Below, piece by piece: positions 3,726 to 30,937 of a DNA stretch of 36,612 bases. The notes beneath the pieces were generated by a model. It made no database searches. It was given only the letters and a program-made list of their open reading frames with translations, and was not told the origin of the DNA. The stretch's first letter is position 1; each line of letters starts with the position of its first letter. The stretch spans positions 1 through 36,612 of the forward strand of contig JAPKZL010000233.1 in NCBI GenBank assembly GCA_026393795.1. Direction: 5' to 3'. A program made the position numbers and the translations under genes. The DNA comes from Candidatus Aminicenantes bacterium (GTDB taxonomy: Bacteria > Acidobacteriota > Aminicenantia > UBA2199).

Positions 3726-4916
3726 TCATTTGATCCCCTGCAGGCCGGCCAGCGCTTTTTCAGCCATCCGGTTTTGAAAGGCGGCCAGTTCCGCTCCGCT
3801 CCGCGGCATTTTTAAAAATTCATCGGTCAGAGCGAATATTTCCCTTTCCGTTTCCAGCAGCCGCGGCAGGAATCCGGTCCCTTGACGGTTGTCCAGCCGG
3901 GTCACGTCCAGGTAAGCGCGGCGGTCGGTTTCCGGGTAAGGCCGGGCCTTTTTTTGCAGCCGTTTCGCCTCCAGGTAGATGGCCGCTTTTTCGCCCTGTT
4001 GCAGCGGGGCGGTCGACGCGCCGGCCTCCACCCACATCGGCACGGCGATGGAAAACAGCGGTTCGCCCAGCATGACCCAGAGGGTGGCCAGGGAGTTTTC
4101 CCGGCCCGGCATCCGGCCGCAGACGATGATGGCCGCCGACGTGGAATCGCGGTCGATGGTGTCGCGGGTGGCGATCCAGAACGGCTGCTTGGCGGAAATT
4201 GCCTTGAACTGCGGCCAGGCGGGCTGGCGGACCAGGGCATGCCCGGTATCGCGGCTGAACTGGCTGAGGATTTGCTGATGGGAGAGCGGCAGGGGAAGGA
4301 CTTGGCGGAACAGCTGGCTGGCCCTTTCGAAGCGCAGGTAGCCGGCCCCGGCTTCCGCTTCGCCGCTACGGGCAAAATTGGTGTTGATGATGTATTTTTC
4401 CGGGAAATCGGCCGTCCGGAATTTCTTGTAGGCATGGTTGGAAACCTCGAACAGAGCCGTTTCGCCGGCGGCATCCAGCACCCCGAAGTTGGCCAGGCTG
4501 CCCAGGCTGGGCCCCAGGTTTTCCTGGATGTAGCTTTCGAAGTCGGCCACGCTGGCGCAGCGGCGCAGGGCGTCGGCCATGATCGTCCCTTCCATATCCT
4601 TGACCTCGCCGCCCTTTTCGGGAAGGTTATAGGCCACCGAGTTGAAAATGGCGAATCCGGCCGAGTTCAAGCCCGCGTAGACCCAGCGCCCGGAGCGGTC
4701 TTCGGCGTTGACCAGCGCCAGGTAGGAAAAGGGATTTTCCTTGACGAAGATGATCTTGTTGCTCAGGAAATCGGTATCGCGGTTTTTCCAAAGCAGCGGC
4801 CGGCCGGTAGCGGAAGCGCTGGAGCCGATGACGGCGGTCGTGCAGGCCAGATCAGGCAGCGGCAGCCCGATTGCCGCGATCATGGCCACGGACAGGAAGA
4901 AGAGCCATTTTTTCAT
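3726..4916 (-). CDS. Secreted Ntn-hydrolase, C45/linear amide hydrolase-like
   Basis: A 396-residue protein with a hydrophobic signal peptide (about residues 1-24) that ends directly before Cys25 in LACTTAVIG. The following stretch (CTTAVIGSSASATGRPLLWKNRDTD) matches the N-terminal-nucleophile hydrolases of clan PB: peptidase C45 acyl-CoA:6-APA acyltransferases, bile-salt hydrolases and C69 dipeptidases. In these enzymes processing exposes the Cys as nucleophile and the downstream Arg/Asp pair supports it. Cleavage here would expose Cys25. Likely activity is hydrolysis of linear amide bonds outside the cytoplasm; the substrate is unknown. It lies upstream of tldDE but has its own promoter (4938-4966) and a GAGG site before the ATG. 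A lipoprotein reading of the Cys is less likely because the residues before it do not form a good lipobox. Confidence 0.75.
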   Translation of the reverse strand: MKKWLFFLSVAMIAAIGLPLPDLACTTAVIGSSASATGRPLLWKNRDTDFLSNKIIFVKENPFSYLALVNAEDRSGRWVYAGLNSAGFAIFNSVAYNLPEKGGEVKDMEGTIMADALRRCASVADFESYIQENLGPSLGSLANFGVLDAAGETALFEVSNHAYKKFRTADFPEKYIINTNFARSGEAEAGAGYLRFERASQLFRQVLPLPLSHQQILSQFSRDTGHALVRQPAWPQFKAISAKQPFWIATRDTIDRDSTSAAIIVCGRMPGRENSLATLWVMLGEPLFSIAVPMWVEAGASTAPLQQGEKAAIYLEAKRLQKKARPYPETDRRAYLDVTRLDNRQGTGFLPRLLETEREIFALTDEFLKMPRSGAELAAFQNRMAEKALAGLQGIK

Positions 4917-6951: not shown

Positions 6952-7446
6952 ATGAAAAAGCTACGCCTGCTTCTGCTGGCCGTCGCGGTCTTGGGGTTTG
7001 CCGCCCCGGCCCAGGAAAGAAACGTGTGCATCCTGGAAACCGCCAAGGGCACGCTGGCTTTTGAAATGTTTCCCGAAGTGGCGCCGCGCACGGTGGCCCG
7101 GATCAGCGAACTGATCGCCGCCGGTTTTTTCGACGGCCTTGTATTCCATCGCGTGGTGGCCGATTTCGTAGTCCAGGCCGGCGATCCGACCGGCACGGGC
7201 GAAGGCGGCTCGGGCCAGACCATCCCCGCCGAATTTTCGCATCTCCATTATATCCGCGGCAGCGTGGGCATGGCCCGCAACGATGATATCCATTCCAACG
7301 ACAGCCAGTTTTTCATTTGCATCAGCGATCAACCGCATCTGGACGGCAAATACACCCTGTTCGGGCAGGTGATCCGCGGCGCGGAGGTTTTGGATCGCAT
7401 CCGCCAGGGCGACAAGATCCTGTCCATGCGCCTGGAAAAAAAGTAA
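6952..7446 (+). CDS. Secreted cyclophilin-type peptidyl-prolyl isomerase
   Basis: A 164-residue protein with a signal peptide (about 1-20, ending APAQ) followed by a compact bacterial cyclophilin domain. Family hallmarks are FHRV (catalytic Arg), FVVQAGDPTGTGEGGSG, GMARND, SQFFI and LDGKYTLFGQV. The cyclosporin-contacting Trp of human CypA is replaced by His (PHLDGK), as in many bacterial enzymes. It catalyses cis-trans isomerisation of prolyl bonds, here in the periplasm or at the cell surface. A GGAGG ribosome-binding site precedes the ATG, and the stop codon directly abuts the ATG of murB. Confidence 0.93.
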   Translation: MKKLRLLLLAVAVLGFAAPAQERNVCILETAKGTLAFEMFPEVAPRTVARISELIAAGFFDGLVFHRVVADFVVQAGDPTGTGEGGSGQTIPAEFSHLHYIRGSVGMARNDDIHSNDSQFFICISDQPHLDGKYTLFGQVIRGAEVLDRIRQGDKILSMRLEKK

Positions 7447-8391
7447 ATGTTCGCCCCCCTGGCTTCCTGGCTCCGCGGCCAAGGCATCGTTTGCCGGGAA
7501 AACGCCGCCATCGGCCCTTTCCTCTATTTCAAGATCGGCGGCAAGGTCGGATTGCTCGTCGTTTGCACGTCGCCGGCCCAGATGGCTGCCAGCCTGCAGA
7601 AGATCATCGCCGCGGGGATTCCCCACCTGGTCATCGGCGGCGGCTCCAACATCGCTTTCGCGGACGACCTGACCGAGGCCGTGGCGCTGGTTTACCAGAG
7701 TGCGCTGAAGCCGTCGGCGGCCGCGCGCCTTGTGGACGGCCAGGCGCTGCAGGTCGACGGCGGCGTTAAAAACCAGGTTTTCCTCTCCTGGTGCGCCGCA
7801 GGCGGCGCCGGCGGCTTTGAGTTTTTGTCCGGCATCCCCGGCACCATGGGCGGGGCGGCGGCGGTCAACGCCGGCGCTTTCGCGAGTTCCATGGCCGATG
7901 TCGTGCTGGGCGCCGATATCCTGGACAGTCGCGGCACCGTGGCGGCGATTGACGCCGACCGTTTTGCCTTCGGTTACCGCGAATCGCGCTTCAAGTTTGG
8001 CACGGAAACGATCCTGTCCCTGCGCCTGAAATACAGCCCGGCCGAGCCGGCGGCCATCGCCGCCGGAATCAAGAAAAACCTGGATTACCGGCTGAGCCAC
8101 CATCCTTCCTACCGCACCCCTTCGGCCGGCTGTTTTTTCAAGAACCCCTCCCTGGGTTCAGGCAGGCGTTCGGCCGGAAAACTCATCGAGGCGTGCGGTT
8201 TGAAGGGCGTAACCTGCGGCGGCCTTGCCGTGGCTGTTGAGCACGGCAATTTTTTGCTCAACCGCGGCCATGCTTCCTTCGCCGACCTGCAATGCTTGGA
8301 AAACGAAATCAAAAAGACCGTGGCAACGCGCACCGGGGTCGATCTGGAGCGGGAAGTGATTTACGTGGCGGCGGACGGAAAAAAATACTGA
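7447..8391 (+). CDS. murB: UDP-N-acetylenolpyruvoylglucosamine reductase (MurB)
   Basis: A 314-residue FAD enzyme that reduces UDP-GlcNAc-enolpyruvate to UDP-MurNAc in peptidoglycan synthesis, in the cytoplasm. Visible hallmarks are the FAD-binding GGGSN (residues 64-68), SGIPGTMGGAAAVNAGAF (about 128-145), the catalytic Arg in GYRES (R178), the proton-donor Ser in SAGCFFKNP (S226), and a C-terminal Glu in LEREV. The short form with GYRES and SAGCFFKNP corresponds to type II MurB. The ATG follows the stop codon of the cyclophilin gene with no gap, so translation is coupled. It is the last gene of the plus-strand envelope operon. Confidence 0.96.
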   Translation: MFAPLASWLRGQGIVCRENAAIGPFLYFKIGGKVGLLVVCTSPAQMAASLQKIIAAGIPHLVIGGGSNIAFADDLTEAVALVYQSALKPSAAARLVDGQALQVDGGVKNQVFLSWCAAGGAGGFEFLSGIPGTMGGAAAVNAGAFASSMADVVLGADILDSRGTVAAIDADRFAFGYRESRFKFGTETILSLRLKYSPAEPAAIAAGIKKNLDYRLSHHPSYRTPSAGCFFKNPSLGSGRRSAGKLIEACGLKGVTCGGLAVAVEHGNFLLNRGHASFADLQCLENEIKKTVATRTGVDLEREVIYVAADGKKY

Positions 8392-8468: not shown

Positions 8469-9098
8469 TTATTGAAGCTTTCTGGCAGAGCGCGTGGCCA
8501 TGGGCAGTTTGCCGCTGCCGGCGCTGCCGCTCGTGCGGGTCGCCGTCCAGGTGCCGGTGTCGACGACGGCGTTGTTATTAAGGTACTGCACCGTTCCGCT
8601 CATTTTGTCTTTTTCGTCAAACGCGCCGTCGAATACCCATTTGTATGTATAACCGGCGATAGAGAATTCGAAGTGGACGTTCTTGCCGTCGACGGTGTAG
8701 GTGCCCGTATCGTCGAATTCTGCCAGTGTCAAGGTGCCCGATGCCTTGTCGCCGCTGAAGATGATGGTCGTGGCTCCCTCCGTCCAGATGGTATCGGTTT
8801 CGCTCCAGGTGCCGACGATGTCGTAACTGGTCTTCAAGACCACCAGGAACAGGACGGCGGCCACGGCGACGACACCCACCCCGATCAGCACGATGGGCAG
8901 GATGCTCTTTTTCTTGCCCACAACCCCGCTGTTGCCCTCTTCCTCGATGAAGCGCGGCCCTTGTTCCGTGTTGGCCGCACTGATTTGCTCGGTCGTGTTG
9001 GCGGCGGCCGCTTCGCAGGGCATGGTGGAGACCTGCAACAGTCCCATGAATGTCAACGTGACCAGCAGCGCGACCCATTTTTGTTGCTTTTTGATCAT
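8469..9098 (-). CDS. Small exported membrane protein, tandem family copy 1
   Basis: A 209-residue protein of a family repeated in this cluster. Order of parts: signal peptide (about 1-32, IKKQQKW then a hydrophobic stretch ending EAAAA); a Glu/Gly-rich linker containing EQGPRFIEEEGNSG; a Lys cluster (KKKSILP) leading into one membrane helix (about 70-93); then a strand-rich domain beginning YDIVGTWS with repeated G-T-W / SGT / GTYTVDGKNV / MSGT / GTWTATR turns, resembling small lipocalin- or avidin-like barrels. The function is not recognised. The ATG at 9098 is preferred over TTG at 9104 because GGAGG lies 9 bases before it. It has its own promoter (9132-9160) and terminator. Confidence 0.75.
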   Translation of the reverse strand: MIKKQQKWVALLVTLTFMGLLQVSTMPCEAAAANTTEQISAANTEQGPRFIEEEGNSGVVGKKKSILPIVLIGVGVVAVAAVLFLVVLKTSYDIVGTWSETDTIWTEGATTIIFSGDKASGTLTLAEFDDTGTYTVDGKNVHFEFSIAGYTYKWVFDGAFDEKDKMSGTVQYLNNNAVVDTGTWTATRTSGSAGSGKLPMATRSARKLQ

Positions 9099-9131
9099 GA
9101 TCAATTGCCTCCTTTAAGCATTCGTACTACG

Positions 9132-9160
9132 TATATACAGAGTTCTTTCCCATATGTCAA
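9132..9160 (-). promoter_or_regulatory. Sigma-70 promoter of tandem family copy 1
   Basis: Minus strand TTGACA (9160-9155), 17-base spacer, TATATA (9137-9132). The leader of about 27 bases carries a GGAGG site. Confidence 0.8.
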
Positions 9161-9203
9161 TGCTTTCGCTCTGGCGCTGGCTATTATGCCCAATGGGTCA
9201 AAA

Positions 9204-9234
9204 AAAAGAGCCTTCCCTTGGGAAAGCTCTTTTC
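9204..9234 (-). terminator. Terminator between family copies 1 and 2
   Basis: AAAGAGCCTTCCC pairs with GGGAAAGCTCTTT with a single mismatch around a TT loop. On the minus strand the hairpin is followed by seven or more T residues. It lies 51 bases after the stop codon of copy 2 (9285). The plus side also has a T-rich flank, so it may work both ways. Confidence 0.75.
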
Positions 9235-9284
9235 TTTGTCTGGCAGCGAATTAAATTTACTAAACCTGTGTTACCTACACCCGT

Positions 9285-9956
9285 TCAGCGCGGTTGTCTC
9301 CGGATTGAATCCCTTTGCGGAACTTGCGAGGCGATCTGCGACACGGCGGCGGTGGTCGTGCTGCGCGTGGCCGTCCACGAACCGGTATCGGTGATCCCGG
9401 ACGGTTTGTTCATGTGCCAGGTACCGCTGAGCGTATTCTTGTCGGTGAAGCTGCCCTCGTAATGGTATTCGTAATTGTTCGGATTTGCAGCCCAATACTG
9501 AATAAAATCGACCGCTTTGTCGTTTACCGTATAGCTGCCCGTATCGGGATCGTCGCCGCCCCACGTGTCGAAGTCGACGCGAACCGTTCCGCTGGTCTTG
9601 CTGCCGGTGAATGTCAAGTAGCGGGTCACGGGAGAATATCCGCTTTCTGTTCGCTGCTGAGTCCATTCGCCCGTGATGTCGTAACTGGATTTCAAAACCA
9701 CCAGGAACAGGACGGCGGCCACGGCGACGACGCCCACGCCGATCAGGACGATGGGCAGGATGCTTTTTTTCTTGCCCACGAACCCGCTGTCCCCCTCTTC
9801 CTCGATGTAGCGCGGCCCTTGCTCGGAGTTGGCCGCACTGATCTGCTCGGCCCTGTCGGCGGCGGCCGCTTCGCAGGGCATGGACGAAACCTGCAACAGC
9901 CCCATGAATGTCAAGGTGACCAGCAAAGCGATCCATTTTTGATGTTTTTTGATCAT
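9285..9956 (-). CDS. Small exported membrane protein, tandem family copy 2
   Basis: A 223-residue paralog of copy 1 with the same plan: signal peptide (IKKHQKWIALLVTLTFMGLL, ending EAAAA), linker with EQGPRYIEEEGDSG, KKKSILP and one membrane helix (ILPIVLIGVGVVAVAAVLFL), then a strand-rich domain (YDITGEWT, SGTVRVDF, GSYTVNDKAVDF, LSGTWHM, GSWTATR). The first 100 residues are nearly identical to copy 1, while the C-terminal domain has diverged strongly. This suggests a conserved delivery and anchor module with a variable displayed domain. The ATG at 9956 has GGAGG 10 bases upstream. It is transcribed from its own promoter (9989-10017). Function unknown. Confidence 0.75.
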   Translation of the reverse strand: MIKKHQKWIALLVTLTFMGLLQVSSMPCEAAAADRAEQISAANSEQGPRYIEEEGDSGFVGKKKSILPIVLIGVGVVAVAAVLFLVVLKSSYDITGEWTQQRTESGYSPVTRYLTFTGSKTSGTVRVDFDTWGGDDPDTGSYTVNDKAVDFIQYWAANPNNYEYHYEGSFTDKNTLSGTWHMNKPSGITDTGSWTATRSTTTAAVSQIASQVPQRDSIRRQPR

Positions 9957-9988
9957 GTCTACTATTCCTCCTTTAATTGGTTGCACAA

Positions 9989-10017
9989 TATATATAGACT
10001 TCTTTCCCGTTTGTCAA
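9989..10017 (-). promoter_or_regulatory. Sigma-70 promoter of tandem family copy 2
   Basis: Minus strand TTGACA (10017-10012), 17-base spacer, TATATA (9994-9989). The sequence from the -35 box into the spacer is almost the same as at copy 1, showing the promoter was duplicated with the gene. Confidence 0.8.
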
Positions 10018-10066
10018 TGCTTTTCGTCGCCGGCCAAAAATTCAGCCTTCGCGAAAGACGGCTGGA

Positions 10067-10579
10067 TCAGTCGATGTCCTGTTTTCCGTTCAGGGATTGG
10101 GTTAGCGGATGAACCGCAGCGGTCGTCGCGCGCGCGGCCGTCCAGGTGCCGGTGGTCGTGCCGTCGAATTTCAGATAGCTTCCGGACATGGCATCCTTGT
10201 CGGTAAAGGTGCCGGTGTACTTGGAGCCGCTCTCAAAGGTCCATTCCACGTTCTTGCCGTCGACCGTGTAGGTTCCATTGAGCAGATTTCCAGATTGTTC
10301 AGCCTCGAAAGTGCCGCTGGCTTTTTCGCCGCTAAAATTCACAGTGAACTCGTAAGTCGAACCTGCAGCGGTGCGGCTCACGTTCCAATCGCCGCGGATG
10401 GCATAGCTGGTTTTCAAAACCACCAGGACGGCGGCCACGGCGACGACGCCAACGCCGATGAGCACATAGGGCAGGATGCTCTTTTTCGGAGCCGGCATGG
10501 GCTTGGGACTCACAGCTTCAAAAACGTCACCTTCTCCCTGCGCTGGCCGAACAACAATACCAGCACTTTTACCGGGCAA
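10067..10579 (-). pseudogene. Rearranged tandem family copy 3, signal peptide lost
   Basis: From base 10498 down, this frame encodes the family's membrane helix (KKSILPYVLIGVG) and strand-rich domain (YAIRGDWN, SGTFEAEQ, GTYTVDGKNVEWTF, MSGSY, GTWTAAR). The normal signal peptide and linker are absent. Instead the frame runs upstream into a 79-base segment (10518-10596) that is an inverted copy of part of copy 4, so the apparent N-terminus is a nonsense reading of the wrong strand. No ribosome-binding site or promoter is visible before the possible ATGs at 10579 or 10498. The domain itself has no stops or frameshifts, so the damage looks recent, or it could be an assembly join. A short 140-residue protein starting at 10498 cannot be excluded. 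Confidence 0.6.
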
Positions 10580-10596
10580 TTCGATACAAAGGATAC
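10518..10596. repeat. 79-bp perfect inverted repeat, left arm
   Basis: This segment is the exact reverse complement of 10877-10955. In copy 4 (minus strand) the sequence encodes the stretch around VTFSLRWPNNNTSTFTGQF; here the same codons appear on the plus strand, upstream of an unrelated tail. The two arms enclose 280 bases. Confidence 0.95.
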
Positions 10597-10752
10597 GCTG
10601 GCTTTTCGCTTTGAATATCCGGGAGCAGCGCTACGGGACTGTGTGGATCAGGCTGCGGGTATTGCGCCTAATTTCTCCCTTGATAAATATTTTTTATACT
10701 GAGTAAGCAATATTCGTTTACGATGCTTGCCTGATTCTCTGCAGAGCCCTTT

Positions 10753-11367
10753 TTAACTATTGGGGCCCCTTTTTTTAGCCAAATTTTTCACTGTGGGCAA
10801 ACTGGCGCCGGAAGCGACGCGTACAGCTGTCCAATCCCCGTCCCAGTCTAAGCTTTCATGGAATCTGCCGCTCATGGTATCCTTTGTATCGAATTGCCCG
10901 GTAAAAGTGCTGGTATTGTTGTTCGGCCAGCGCAGGGAGAAGGTGACGTTTTTGACGTCGACGGTGTAGGTACCGGTCCCGCTCCAATTGTCGGTTGTGG
11001 TGCCGCTTTTTTTGTCGCCGGTAAATACAGGTGTAGTGTTCCACTCATAATCGTCATCGTCGTAGGTAATATGAACCGTCCAGGTGCCGCGGATGTCATA
11101 GCTGGTTTTTAAAACCACCAGGAACAGGACGGCGGCCACGGCGACGACGCCCACGCCGATCAACACGATGGGCAGAATGCTTTTTTTCTTGACCTGATTG
11201 CCGCTGTTGCCCTCTTCCTCGATGTAGCGCGGCCCCTGCTCGGAATTGGCCGCACCGATCTGCTCGGTCGTGCCGGCGGCAGCAACGGGCATGGTCGATA
11301 CCTGGAGCAGCCAGGCGAATGTCAATGTGACCAATAATGCGATCCATCTTTGTTGTTTTTTAGTCAT
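10753..11367 (-). CDS. Small exported membrane protein, tandem family copy 4
   Basis: A 204-residue family member: signal peptide (TKKQQRWIALLVTLTF... ending VAAAG), linker with EQGPRYIEEEGNSG, KKKSILP and one membrane helix, then the strand-rich domain (YDIRGTWT, SGTTTDNWSGTGTYTVDVKNV, TFTGQFDTKDTMSG, GDWTAVR). The ATG at 11367 has GGAGG 8 bases upstream and is preferred over the in-frame start at 11382. Its own promoter is at 11396-11424. Bases 10877-10955 of this gene form the right arm of the perfect inverted repeat. The arm ends just before the codons for MSGRFHESLDW, so an inversion between the arms would replace its last 40 or so residues. Confidence 0.75.
   Translation of the reverse strand: MTKKQQRWIALLVTLTFAWLLQVSTMPVAAAGTTEQIGAANSEQGPRYIEEEGNSGNQVKKKSILPIVLIGVGVVAVAAVLFLVVLKTSYDIRGTWTVHITYDDDDYEWNTTPVFTGDKKSGTTTDNWSGTGTYTVDVKNVTFSLRWPNNNTSTFTGQFDTKDTMSGRFHESLDWDGDWTAVRVASGASLPTVKNLAKKRGPNS
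10877..10955. repeat. 79-bp perfect inverted repeat, right arm
   Basis: Exact reverse complement of 10518-10596. It lies inside the coding region of tandem family copy 4 and covers the second half of its strand-rich domain. All 79 bases were compared by eye and match. Confidence 0.95.
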
Positions 11368-11395
11368 ATATAATTCCTCCATTTTCTAGATCTAG

Positions 11396-11424
11396 ATGGT
11401 AGAAAAATTCCCAACGAATGTCAA
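11396..11424 (-). promoter_or_regulatory. Sigma-70 promoter of tandem family copy 4
   Basis: Minus strand TTGACA (11424-11419), 17-base spacer, TACCAT (11401-11396). It differs from the promoters of copies 1 and 2 in spacer and -10 box, so this copy is probably older or was separately acquired. Confidence 0.65.
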
Positions 11425-11545
11425 TCCAAGACTGAAAAAAAGAGGGGAAATAAGCCTGCATACTTTCCTACTTGGATGGTGTTTTGCTTCTCTTACAAGT
11501 GTTTCGGAAGCTGCTGGCCGGACGAGTATTGTTTTTGCGGTGTGG

Positions 11546-11611
11546 CTAACGGGTCATTGTGAAGGTGCAGACGACCAGCAGCGCGATCCATTTCTGGTTT
11601 TTCTTGATCAT
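11546..11611 (-). pseudogene. Remnant of a fifth tandem family copy
   Basis: A 21-codon frame (IKKNQKWIALLVVCTFTMTR after the Met) starts at an ATG preceded by AAGGAGGG and matches the signal-peptide start of the other copies (IKKHQKWIALLVTLTF). It then hits a stop codon, and the rest of the gene is absent. The surrounding 325 bases between copy 4 and comF hold nothing else recognisable. Confidence 0.7.
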
Positions 11612-12709: not shown

Positions 12710-13729
12710 ATGAAAAAGAGCGCCTACGAAGAGGCCGGGGTCAGCATCGACCGCGGCAACCAGGCGGTCGAACGCATCAAGTCCATGGTCGAGCGCATGG
12801 GCATTAAGGAAATAGGCAAGTTCGGCGGGTTTTTCCCCCTCAAGGGCAACCTGAAAAATCCCGTCCTGGTCTCGTCGGCCGACGGCGTGGGCACCAAGCT
12901 GAAGATCGCCTTTCTGACCGGCGTGCACGACACCGTGGGCCGCGACCTGGTCAATCACTGCGTCAACGATATCCTGGTCTACGGCGCCCGGCCGCTGTTT
13001 TTTCTCGATTACCTGGCCAGCGGCAAGGTCATTCCCGAAACCGTCGGCCAGGTGGTGTCCGGGGTGCTGGACGGCTGCCTGGACAACGACATGATCTTGC
13101 TGGGCGGCGAAACCGCGGAGATGCCCGGGTTTTACCAGGAAGGGGAATACGACATCGCCGGCTTCATCGTCGGCATCGTGGCCAAGGAGAAGGTGGTGGA
13201 TGGGAAGAGCATCGCCAAGGGCGACCTGCTCATCGGCCTGCCGTCGAACGGGCTGCATACCAACGGCTATTCGCTGGCCCGGCACATCATTTTTGAAAAG
13301 CTCAAGCTGAAGGTGGACAGCCGGGTAAACGGGTTGGATGCCCCGATCGGCGAGGAACTGCTGCGCGTGCACCGTTCCTACCTCAAGCCGGTGAACGCCC
13401 TGCTGGCCCCCCACCTGCTTAAGGGCATGGCCCATATCACCGGCGGCGGATTGCTGGAAAACATCCCCCGCATCCTGCCCGAACCGACCGCGGTCGTGCT
13501 CGAAAAAACCTGGCCGCTGCCGCCGCTCTTTTCCTTCCTGATCCAGGCCGGCCATGTTTCCGAGCAGGAGCGCTACCGGGTTTTCAACATGGGCATCGGC
13601 ATGGTGCTGGTCATCGAACCCAGGCACCTTTCCCGGGTGGAAGCCATCCTCAATGGCATGGGCGAGGCATTCTACCTGATCGGCCAGGTGACCGACGGCA
13701 AGGGCAAGGAGCGGGTGCGCATCAAATGA
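12710..13729 (+). CDS. purM: Phosphoribosylformylglycinamidine cyclo-ligase (AIR synthase)
   Basis: A 339-residue PurM. It closes the imidazole ring of FGAM using ATP to give AIR, the fifth step of purine synthesis. Hallmarks are SSADGVGTKLKIA, the NHCVNDILVYGARPLFFLDY stretch, GGETAEMPGFY, SNGLHTNGYSLAR and ITGGGLLENIPRILP. The length matches the family. The ATG at 12710 has AAGGAG six bases upstream; the in-frame ATG at 12704 directly abuts that site and is unlikely. The stop codon overlaps the start of tupA by four bases (ATGA), so purine synthesis and the downstream transporter are co-translated. Confidence 0.97.
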   Translation: MKKSAYEEAGVSIDRGNQAVERIKSMVERMGIKEIGKFGGFFPLKGNLKNPVLVSSADGVGTKLKIAFLTGVHDTVGRDLVNHCVNDILVYGARPLFFLDYLASGKVIPETVGQVVSGVLDGCLDNDMILLGGETAEMPGFYQEGEYDIAGFIVGIVAKEKVVDGKSIAKGDLLIGLPSNGLHTNGYSLARHIIFEKLKLKVDSRVNGLDAPIGEELLRVHRSYLKPVNALLAPHLLKGMAHITGGGLLENIPRILPEPTAVVLEKTWPLPPLFSFLIQAGHVSEQERYRVFNMGIGMVLVIEPRHLSRVEAILNGMGEAFYLIGQVTDGKGKERVRIK

Positions 13730-14541
13730 AAAAACGATTCCCTGCATGCCTCCTTATTATTTTCTCGCTTATCGCGCCGGGACGTCTCCTGGCCAAGGAA
13801 AATTTGACTCTGGCCTCGACCACGTCGACGCTCGATTCGGGGCTGTTCGACGTCCTGATGCCGGTTTTTGAAAAGAAATTCGACGTCACGGTCAAGGTCA
13901 TCGCCGTAGGCAGCGGTCAGGCGCTGCGCCTGGCCCGCGACGGCAATGCCGACGTGCTGCTGGTTCACGACCGCGCCGCCGAGGAGAAATTCGTGGCCGA
14001 CGGTTTCGGGGTCGAACGCCTCGACGTGATGCACAACGACTTCGTGCTGGTGGGGCCGAAAATTGATCCGGCCCGGATCCGCGGCCTGCAGGGGTCGGAA
14101 GCGTTAAAAAAAATCGCGGCCGCCGGCGCTTATTTCGTTTCCCGCGGCGACGATTCGGGCACCCATAAAAAAGAGCTGCAATTGTGGAAGGCCGCGGACG
14201 TGCCCCCGGCCGGGACGTGGTACCTGGAGAGCGGCACGGGCATGGAGGCGACCTTGCGCATCGCCAGCGAGAAGCTCGCCTATTGCCTGGTCGACCGCGC
14301 CACCTGGCTGGCGCATGCGCGGGAAATCGACGCCCTGGCGGTCCTGGTCGAGGGTGACGCGCCGCTATTCAATCCCTATTCGGTCATCGTCGTCAACCCG
14401 GCAAAATTCCCCTGGCTAAATTTCAAGCTGGCCAACCGTTTCGCCGAGTTCATCCGTTCGGCCGCAGGGCAGGCGATCATCCGCGACTTCGGCCGGGACA
14501 AGTTCGGCTGCCCTCTCTTTTATCCCGATGTCATCCGCTGA
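13726..14541 (+). CDS. tupA: Tungstate-type ABC transporter substrate-binding protein
   Basis: A 271-residue periplasmic binding protein with a signal peptide (about 1-23, ending LLA-KE). The start of the mature protein, LASTTSTLDSGLFDVLMPVFE, followed by VIAVGSGQAL and DVLLVHDRAAEEKFV, matches TupA; the TTS and GSGQA loops bind the oxyanion in that family. FVSRGDDSGTHKKEL and WYLESGTGM continue the pattern. TupA binds tungstate with high selectivity over molybdate, but specificity cannot be read with certainty here. No lipobox is present. The ATG overlaps the purM stop codon; tupB follows after 68 bases. Confidence 0.9.
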   Translation: MKKRFPACLLIIFSLIAPGRLLAKENLTLASTTSTLDSGLFDVLMPVFEKKFDVTVKVIAVGSGQALRLARDGNADVLLVHDRAAEEKFVADGFGVERLDVMHNDFVLVGPKIDPARIRGLQGSEALKKIAAAGAYFVSRGDDSGTHKKELQLWKAADVPPAGTWYLESGTGMEATLRIASEKLAYCLVDRATWLAHAREIDALAVLVEGDAPLFNPYSVIVVNPAKFPWLNFKLANRFAEFIRSAAGQAIIRDFGRDKFGCPLFYPDVIR

Positions 14542-14609
14542 TGCCGTTTCCAGAACCTTCCCGGGATACCTGATGCTGAATGCCGCGCAACGGCGCCAGG
14601 AAAAATGAA

Positions 14610-15296
14610 ATGGCCTACATCCTCGACGGGTTGAAGCACGGCCTGGCGATCCTGCTGCCGCCCAGCCGGGAGATCCTGCAGATCGTTTTCCTCTCCCTGA
14701 TAGTGTCCGGAAGCGCCACCCTGCTGGCCGCCGCGGCCGCGATCCCGGCCGCCCTGCTCCTGGCCCTCAGGGAGTTCCGCGGCAAGCGGTTCCTGGTCGG
14801 AGCGATCAACACCGCCCTGGCCGTTCCGGCCGTGCTCATCGGCCTGCTGGTCTACGGCCTCGTCAGCCGCCGCGGTCCGTTGGGAACCTTGGCGCTTCTT
14901 TTTACTCCCGGGGCGATGATCATGGCCCAGGCGCTGCTGGCCTTTCCGCTCATTACCGCCCTGGCATTGGCCGCGCTGAAGGGCATCGCCCGCGATGCGC
15001 GCGACCTGGCCCTGTCGCTGGGCGCCAACCGGCTGCAATTGGCCCTGGCCGTCATCCGCCAGGGGCGCTTCGCCTTCCTGACGGCGCTGATCGCCGGCTT
15101 TTCCCGGGTCATCGGCGAGACCGGCATGACCCTGATGGTCGGGGGCAATATCAAGGGGCAGACCCGGGTGCTGACCACGGCGATTTCGCTGGAGACGATG
15201 AAGGGCAACTTCGAGATCGGCATCGCCCTCGGGATCGTCCTGCTGCTGGTGGCCCTGGTCATCAACATCGCCCTGCAATGGGCGCAGGGTAAATGA
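14610..15296 (+). CDS. tupB: Tungstate-type ABC transporter permease
   Basis: A 228-residue inner-membrane permease with about five hydrophobic helices. The cytoplasmic EAA loop is LALSLGANRLQLALAVIRQG, and the surrounding AGFSRVIGETGMTLMVGGNI is typical of TupB/ModB-like permeases. The ATG at 14610 is preceded by AGGA with 8-base spacing; an earlier in-frame start at 14580 has no ribosome-binding site. The stop overlaps the start of tupC, the ATPase. The 68-base gap after tupA shows no hairpin. Confidence 0.92.
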   Translation: MAYILDGLKHGLAILLPPSREILQIVFLSLIVSGSATLLAAAAAIPAALLLALREFRGKRFLVGAINTALAVPAVLIGLLVYGLVSRRGPLGTLALLFTPGAMIMAQALLAFPLITALALAALKGIARDARDLALSLGANRLQLALAVIRQGRFAFLTALIAGFSRVIGETGMTLMVGGNIKGQTRVLTTAISLETMKGNFEIGIALGIVLLLVALVINIALQWAQGK

Positions 15297-16363
15297 TGGA
15301 CATCCGCGCCGAAAAACTGAAGCAAGTGGCCGGGGGCAAGGCGATCCTGGATGGAGTCAGCCTCGATTTCGCCGCCGGGGCGGTCAACGTCATACTCGGG
15401 CCCAACGGGGCCGGCAAAACGACCCTGCTGCGCCTGCTCTGCCTTTTGGACCCCCCCGCCCAGGGCGACATTTTCTACGACGGTTCGGCGCTGGGTGCGC
15501 TGCGCGGCAAGGAACGCACCGCCCTGCGCCGGCGCATCGGTTTTGTTTTTCAAGCGCCGTTGTTGCTGAGCGGGACCGTCGTCGACAATCTGCTCTACGG
15601 GCCGCGCTTGCGCGGCATCGACGTTCCCGGGCCGGCCATGCGCCGGGTGCTGCTGGAAACCGGCCTGGAAGGCAGGGAAACCCAGGAGGCGAAGCAGCTC
15701 TCGGGAGGCGAGAAGCAGCGGCTGCAGCTGGCCCGGGTGCTGCTCCTCGATCCGGAGCTTTATTTGCTGGACGAGCCCACGGCCAACCTCGATCCGCTGA
15801 GCGTGAAGAACATCGAACTCGCCATCACCCGCCTGGCCCAATCAGGCAAAACGGTGATCCTGGCCACCCACAATCTGATCCAGGCCAGACTGCTGGCCGG
15901 GAAGGTCATTTTCCTCAAGGCGGGCAAGCTGGTGCAGTCCGGATCGGCTTCGGCCGTGCTCGGCCGGCCGTTTTCCCTGGATATCGCCGAGTTCTCGGCC
16001 GCAGAGAATATCGTTTCCGGCACCCTGGCCCGCCGCGACGGCCACACCATGCTCGATTGCGGCAAGCTGGCCGTCGAGGTGGTCAGCGAGCGGGAGCAAG
16101 GTCCGGCGGCAGCCGTGATCCGTCCCGAGGATATCCTGGTTTCCCGGGGACCCGTTTCATCCTCGGCGCGCAATTCGTTTCCCGGGTCGATCGTGGCCGC
16201 GGTCGACTTGGGCCTGGTCGTGTCGCTCGGCGTAGACTGCGGCGGCTTCGTGTTCACGGTGTTCGTCACCCGCCATTCCTGCGCGCAGATGGACCTGCGC
16301 CCGGGAGCGGAGGTGGTGCTCACCTTCAAGGCCACATCGGTGCATCTGCTGCCGTCGGGGTGA
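15293..16363 (+). CDS. tupC: Tungstate-type ABC transporter ATPase with C-terminal TOBE-like domain
   Basis: A 356-residue ATP-binding subunit. Walker A is GPNGAGKTT (about residue 37), the signature is LSGGEKQRLQLARVLL, Walker B is LYLLDEPTANLD, and the switch His is in LATHN. After about residue 230 a strand-rich tail (MLDCGKLAVEVV, AAVIRPEDILVS, GSIVAAVDLGLVVSLGVDCGG) looks like a TOBE/MOP-type oxyanion-sensing domain, which in related molybdate ATPases allows inhibition by the bound anion. Two adjacent in-frame ATGs (15293 and 15296) are possible. It overlaps tupB by four bases and is followed by the phosphoribosyltransferase gene after 27 bases. Confidence 0.93.
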   Translation: MMDIRAEKLKQVAGGKAILDGVSLDFAAGAVNVILGPNGAGKTTLLRLLCLLDPPAQGDIFYDGSALGALRGKERTALRRRIGFVFQAPLLLSGTVVDNLLYGPRLRGIDVPGPAMRRVLLETGLEGRETQEAKQLSGGEKQRLQLARVLLLDPELYLLDEPTANLDPLSVKNIELAITRLAQSGKTVILATHNLIQARLLAGKVIFLKAGKLVQSGSASAVLGRPFSLDIAEFSAAENIVSGTLARRDGHTMLDCGKLAVEVVSEREQGPAAAVIRPEDILVSRGPVSSSARNSFPGSIVAAVDLGLVVSLGVDCGGFVFTVFVTRHSCAQMDLRPGAEVVLTFKATSVHLLPSG

Positions 16364-30710: not shown

Positions 30711-30756
30711 GGGCAGGGGCAACACAAACCATCCGCCTATCCTAGGGATGAAGAAA

Positions 30757-30937
30757 GTTCGGCGTTCGGAGTTGGGAGTTCGGAGTGAAGATTAGGAACG
30801 TTCGGAGTAAGGAGTTCGGAGTGAAGAGAATGAAAGAAAAAGAATTACCTGACTTTTCTTTTCTTACACCGAACTCCGAACGCTTAACTCCCAACTTTTC
30901 TTTCCCTTCACCGAACTCCGAACGCTTGACTCCGAAC
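30757..30937. repeat. Heptamer-rich palindromic repeat element, copy B
   Basis: Same structure and orientation as copy A: GTTCGGCGTTCGGAGT opens both; the core AGAATGAAAGAAAAAGAATT and what follows to CTTTTCTT is identical. The right half is longer, with CCGAACTCCGAACGCTT occurring twice. The element reaches the stop codon of the sigma-54 regulator gene (30938-30940), so it may have replaced that gene's original downstream region. Confidence 0.8.

Follow-up and report, generated by a model that had tools for sequence, protein, structure and literature searches.

A perfect 79-bp inverted repeat in a tandem gene array of a Candidatus Aminicenantes bacterium and its probable origin by inverted duplication

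Two 79-bp segments that are exact reverse complements lie close together in a tandem gene array of a Candidatus Aminicenantes bacterium, one of them inside an intact gene and the other at the broken end of a neighboring copy. The arrangement raises the question of whether the DNA between the segments is an invertible switch, the scar of a duplicative inversion, or a chimeric join, the three options that the original prediction had left side by side. The sequence was analyzed as the complete contig JAPKZL010000233.1 (C233; 36,612 nucleotides), here called the window, from a 3.15-Mb draft genome of 323 contigs that is 96% complete. The analysis favors the duplicative inversion, and the other two options are less favored.

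The tandem array and its inverted repeat

The genus-mates of the window genome are Candidatus Aminicenantes MAGs, and throughout the genus the genes are ordered cyclophilin-murB-array-comF-thiL, where the array consists of 1 to at least 5 tandem copies of a single protein family. The family's named relatives all come from Candidatus Aminicenantes or Acidobacteriota MAGs. Genus-wide, this variable-copy family between murB and comF is represented by window positions 8469-11611 and by loci L119, L123-L127, and L132-L145. In the window the copies are on the minus strand; copies 1, 2, and 4 are intact and copy 3 is truncated, and of a fifth copy only a short remnant is left. Directly after thiL, at 13726-16363, the window carries tungstate/molybdate-type ABC transporter genes (binding protein, permease, and ATPase). 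The features of the array are as follows.

8469-9098, minus strand: family copy 1 (family HMM positions 1-190 of 201)
9285-9956, minus strand: family copy 2 (HMM 1-196 of 201)
10067-10517, minus strand: family copy 3, 5'-truncated (HMM coverage from position 39 of 201; first residues within the arm)
10518-10596, plus strand: left arm, identical at 79 of 79 positions to the reverse complement of 10877-10955, with abrupt ends
10597-10876, no strand: spacer of 280 nt, comprising the C-terminal codons and stop of copy 4 (10753-10876) and then 10597-10752, probably intergenic
10753-11367, minus strand: family copy 4, intact, 204 aa (ATG at 11367, stop at 10753; HMM 1-197 of 201; promoter TTGACA-17-TACCAT upstream)
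10877-10955, minus strand: right arm, inside copy 4 (codons 138-164), aligned with the family core VDGKNV..TG.F..KD
11546-11611, minus strand: fifth-copy remnant, MIKKNQKWIALLVVCTFTMTR followed by a stop (HMM 1-18 of 201; direct repeat D4)

Each intact copy codes for a protein with a signal-like helix, an acidic linker, and, after a second helix, a beta barrel. In its structure model, copy 4 has nine strands between residues 94 and 183, with pLDDT above 90 over most of the domain, and it is matched best in structure by small designed beta barrels. Comparison of the family with Pfam, NCBIfam, PHROGs, and PADLOC gave no confident match, and Pfam matches to EssA and Lipocalin_4 were set aside as below the curated cutoff or weak. 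Cap15, a cyclic-dinucleotide receptor beta barrel, was one of the weaker hits in the structural comparison (rank 20, E value of 0.011), but no PADLOC model matched the family. The product had earlier been labeled a surface-type protein, a label that the model, in which a signal-like helix and a further helix accompany a small beta barrel, does not establish.

The 79-bp perfect repeat with a 280-base spacer was confirmed, and similarity between 10518-10596 and 10877-10955 ends abruptly at both arm edges. No other inverted repeat in the window approached the pair in length, and in a 1.03-Mb sample of the same genome it was the longest exact inverted repeat within a contig, the runner-up measuring 35 bp and having its arms separated by 7.3 kb. 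A search of 176 kb surrounding the family genes of relatives yielded no exact inverted repeat of 22 bp or longer. The locus itself was found genus-wide, but the 79-bp repeat in none of the relatives searched. We conclude that the 79-bp inverted repeat is far beyond chance.

Other repeats were noted in passing. Imperfect inverted repeats, with GTTCGGAGTT-type units abundant, occur at window positions 30756-30925. Elsewhere, pairs of REP-like palindromes (GTAGGGG...CCCCTAC), each perfect over 28 bp and the two about 900 bp apart, were seen at L069 (3586-3613 and 4511-4538) and L113 (10834-10861 and 11780-11807).

Origin of the two arms

The right arm, correctly placed within copy 4 by the original prediction, is in register with the family alignment and contains model strands E140-146 and E152-161. 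Judged by that alignment, the right arm is the native location of the sequence. The left arm, by comparison, would be an inserted copy that replaced the 5' end of copy 3: on the opposite strand, it occupies the place expected for the signal peptide, linker, and promoter of that gene. The closest match to copy 3, from sister genome L011 (64% identity), is complete, with a signal peptide and linker and without the insert. Because L011 has GPDYFEAIGQKAAPAKKK where copy 3 has DVFEAVSPKPMPAPKK, homology restarts at the edge of the arm ("FEAV"). Copy 3 has no signal peptide in the assembled orientation, and the comparison with L011 bears out the earlier claim that the left arm cuts it off.

Inspection of upstream sequences indicated a TTGACA-type promoter just upstream of intact copies 1, 2, and 4, among which a consensus promoter scan scored only that of copy 4. 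The consensus scan of 10480-10780, upstream of copy 3, gave no promoter match. The 156 bases at 10597-10752 had no credible match in the sample of the genome itself, in relatives, or in phages, which is not remarkable since another intergenic segment of the array, 11383-11557, was likewise unmatched in relatives; the 156 bases are probably an old intergenic spacer. We infer that copy 3 has become a pseudogene.

Template switches give rise to perfect inverted repeats at short distances, as a four-point model describes (PMC7954356). In accordance with that model, a nearby segment appears here as a perfect reverse-complement copy: one arm is native, and the other has different flanks and sharp ends. 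The locus differs from the model in that the 5' end of the recipient gene was lost and in that the ancestral state comes from genus relatives rather than from a near-identical genome; the state before the event is therefore a reconstruction, for which the 64%-identical L011 protein is the closest guide. While the locus was being replicated or a break in it repaired, a nascent strand probably jumped to the opposite strand. There it would have made a reverse copy of 79 nt from copy 4, and it may then have rejoined within the copy 3 linker region. Whatever lay between its points of exit and re-entry, namely the promoter and signal peptide of copy 3 and the beginning of that gene's linker, would have been lost. 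Comparison with relatives indicates that TTTGA is shared at the copy 3 edge and may represent microhomology at that junction, a reconstruction from relatives, since copy 3 has lost its own bases there. The event was probably recent, since the arms are perfectly identical.

A template switch is thus the likely mechanism behind the repeat. With reasonable though incomplete confidence, the evidence points to a single templated inverted duplication with deletion, which left a pseudogenizing scar in a fast-turnover array: the repeat is exact and sharp-ended, the right arm is native, copy 3 is truncated at the arm edge, and synteny around the array is conserved. Also in its favor are the range of copy numbers that the genus shows between these flanking genes, from 1 to at least 5, and the remnant of a fifth copy in the window.

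Artefact, invertible segment, and hairpin as alternatives

A chimeric template formed during library preparation could leave the same pattern as a template switch. The strongest rival is a local artefact of assembly or library preparation, with a chimeric junction on either side of the 79-bp segment, in a draft genome whose array is repetitive. Chimeras formed by MDA are for the most part inverted sequences and typically have sharp ends and short complementarity at their junctions (PMC1855051), and inverted-repeat chimeric reads also arise in nanopore ligation libraries (PMC13141652); the locus resembles such products in its inverted sequence, in its probable intervening deletion, and perhaps in short junction complementarity. 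The fragmentation of the source genome into 323 contigs, exact repeats of up to 52 bp within the array itself, and the standing of the 79-bp pair as the only long inverted repeat in the 1.03-Mb sample are also consistent with an artefact. Against it, two independent false joins would be required around one 79-mer, and MDA would predict further repeats of this kind, of which the 1.03-Mb sample contained no second example. Moreover, exact within-contig repeats of 87 to 102 bp occur in the same assembly, so a 79-bp repeat is inside the range that the assembly spans. A chimera of the whole contig seems unlikely because both flanks of the array retain the genus-wide order. We consider a local artefact a real possibility, though one clearly less probable than a templated inverted duplication.

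The original prediction had also proposed that inversion of the spacer could swap the C terminus of copy 4. When the 280-bp spacer was inverted in silico, the reading frame of copy 4 stayed open through the arm and gave a protein of 198 aa instead of 204 aa with the C terminus LAFRFEYPGAALRDCVDQAAGIAPNFSLDKYFLY, so the claim stands as to the frame. The exchange is biologically weak, however: the product loses strands E164-171 and E175-183, the last two of the modeled barrel, together with the near-invariant alignment columns G167, W179, and A181, and acquires a 34-residue tail. The tail had no credible relatives in 142 genomes of the class and none in plasmids; candidate matches in sets of 31 and 142 genomes occurred only at the number expected by chance and were rejected. 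Copy 3 gained no signal peptide in the inverted orientation either, and a promoter scan of part of the spacer gave no match. As the flipped copy 4 would be short of conserved strands, the arrangement seen in the assembly is most likely ancestral.

Known invertons, including intragenic ones (PMC11892184; reviewed in PMC11868660), resemble the locus in their close inverted repeats, short spacer, single arm within coding sequence, and frame open both ways. Recombination of the RecA type could in principle act on arms of 79 bp, and perfect identity could stem from ongoing exchange. The locus departs from known invertons in that the alternative product resembles no family member and in that the window proteins scanned against recombinase models gave no match. 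Profile matches to the serine and tyrosine recombinases (PF00239 and PF00589) were all on other contigs (C158, C303, C109, C284, and C20), the sampled stretches of which lacked the arm sequence, and no relative carried the repeat. A link to the serine recombinases of C158 was rejected, as its sampled stretch shares no arm sequence. That contig (L153 in G000) has a pair of closely similar serine recombinase genes plus a third, fragmentary one at 493-957, 4147-4239, and 6979-7536, and, as judged by eye, an IS256-type transposase-like open reading frame and small toxin-antitoxin-like open reading frames.

A switch is therefore possible in geometry only, given the lost strands, the tail without relatives, the copy 3 that still has no signal peptide, and the lack of a recombinase match among the window proteins scanned. 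An active inverton that alternates the copy 4 C terminus is very improbable. A recombinase-independent intragenic inverton, born by template switching in a tandem array of an uncultured Aminicenantes bacterium and alternating a full beta-barrel protein with an unrelated-tail form, is likewise very improbable. We conclude that the locus is unlikely to be a working genetic switch.

Also very improbable is a functional hairpin or antisense element, in which read-through from copy 4 would yield a transcript whose 79-bp hairpin regulates copy 4 or the array. The predicted RNA fold is stable (-230.6 kcal/mol; z score of -14.5), and from the stop of copy 4 as far as the left arm the consensus scan indicated no terminator, but such stability is trivial because the repeat is perfect, and the hairpin is not conserved in relatives, has no Rfam match, and has no promoter match in the part of the spacer scanned.

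Implications for tandem arrays

We conclude that the 79-bp repeat is probably the product of a one-time inverted duplication that broke copy 3, and the kind of event behind it is ordinary. The locus also gives reason for caution, in that a perfect inverted repeat in a draft genome is not to be equated with a phase-variation switch unless reads support it. If real, the duplication would cleanly illustrate the way in which short inverted duplications come about and disrupt genes within the fast-changing tandem arrays of uncultured bacteria.
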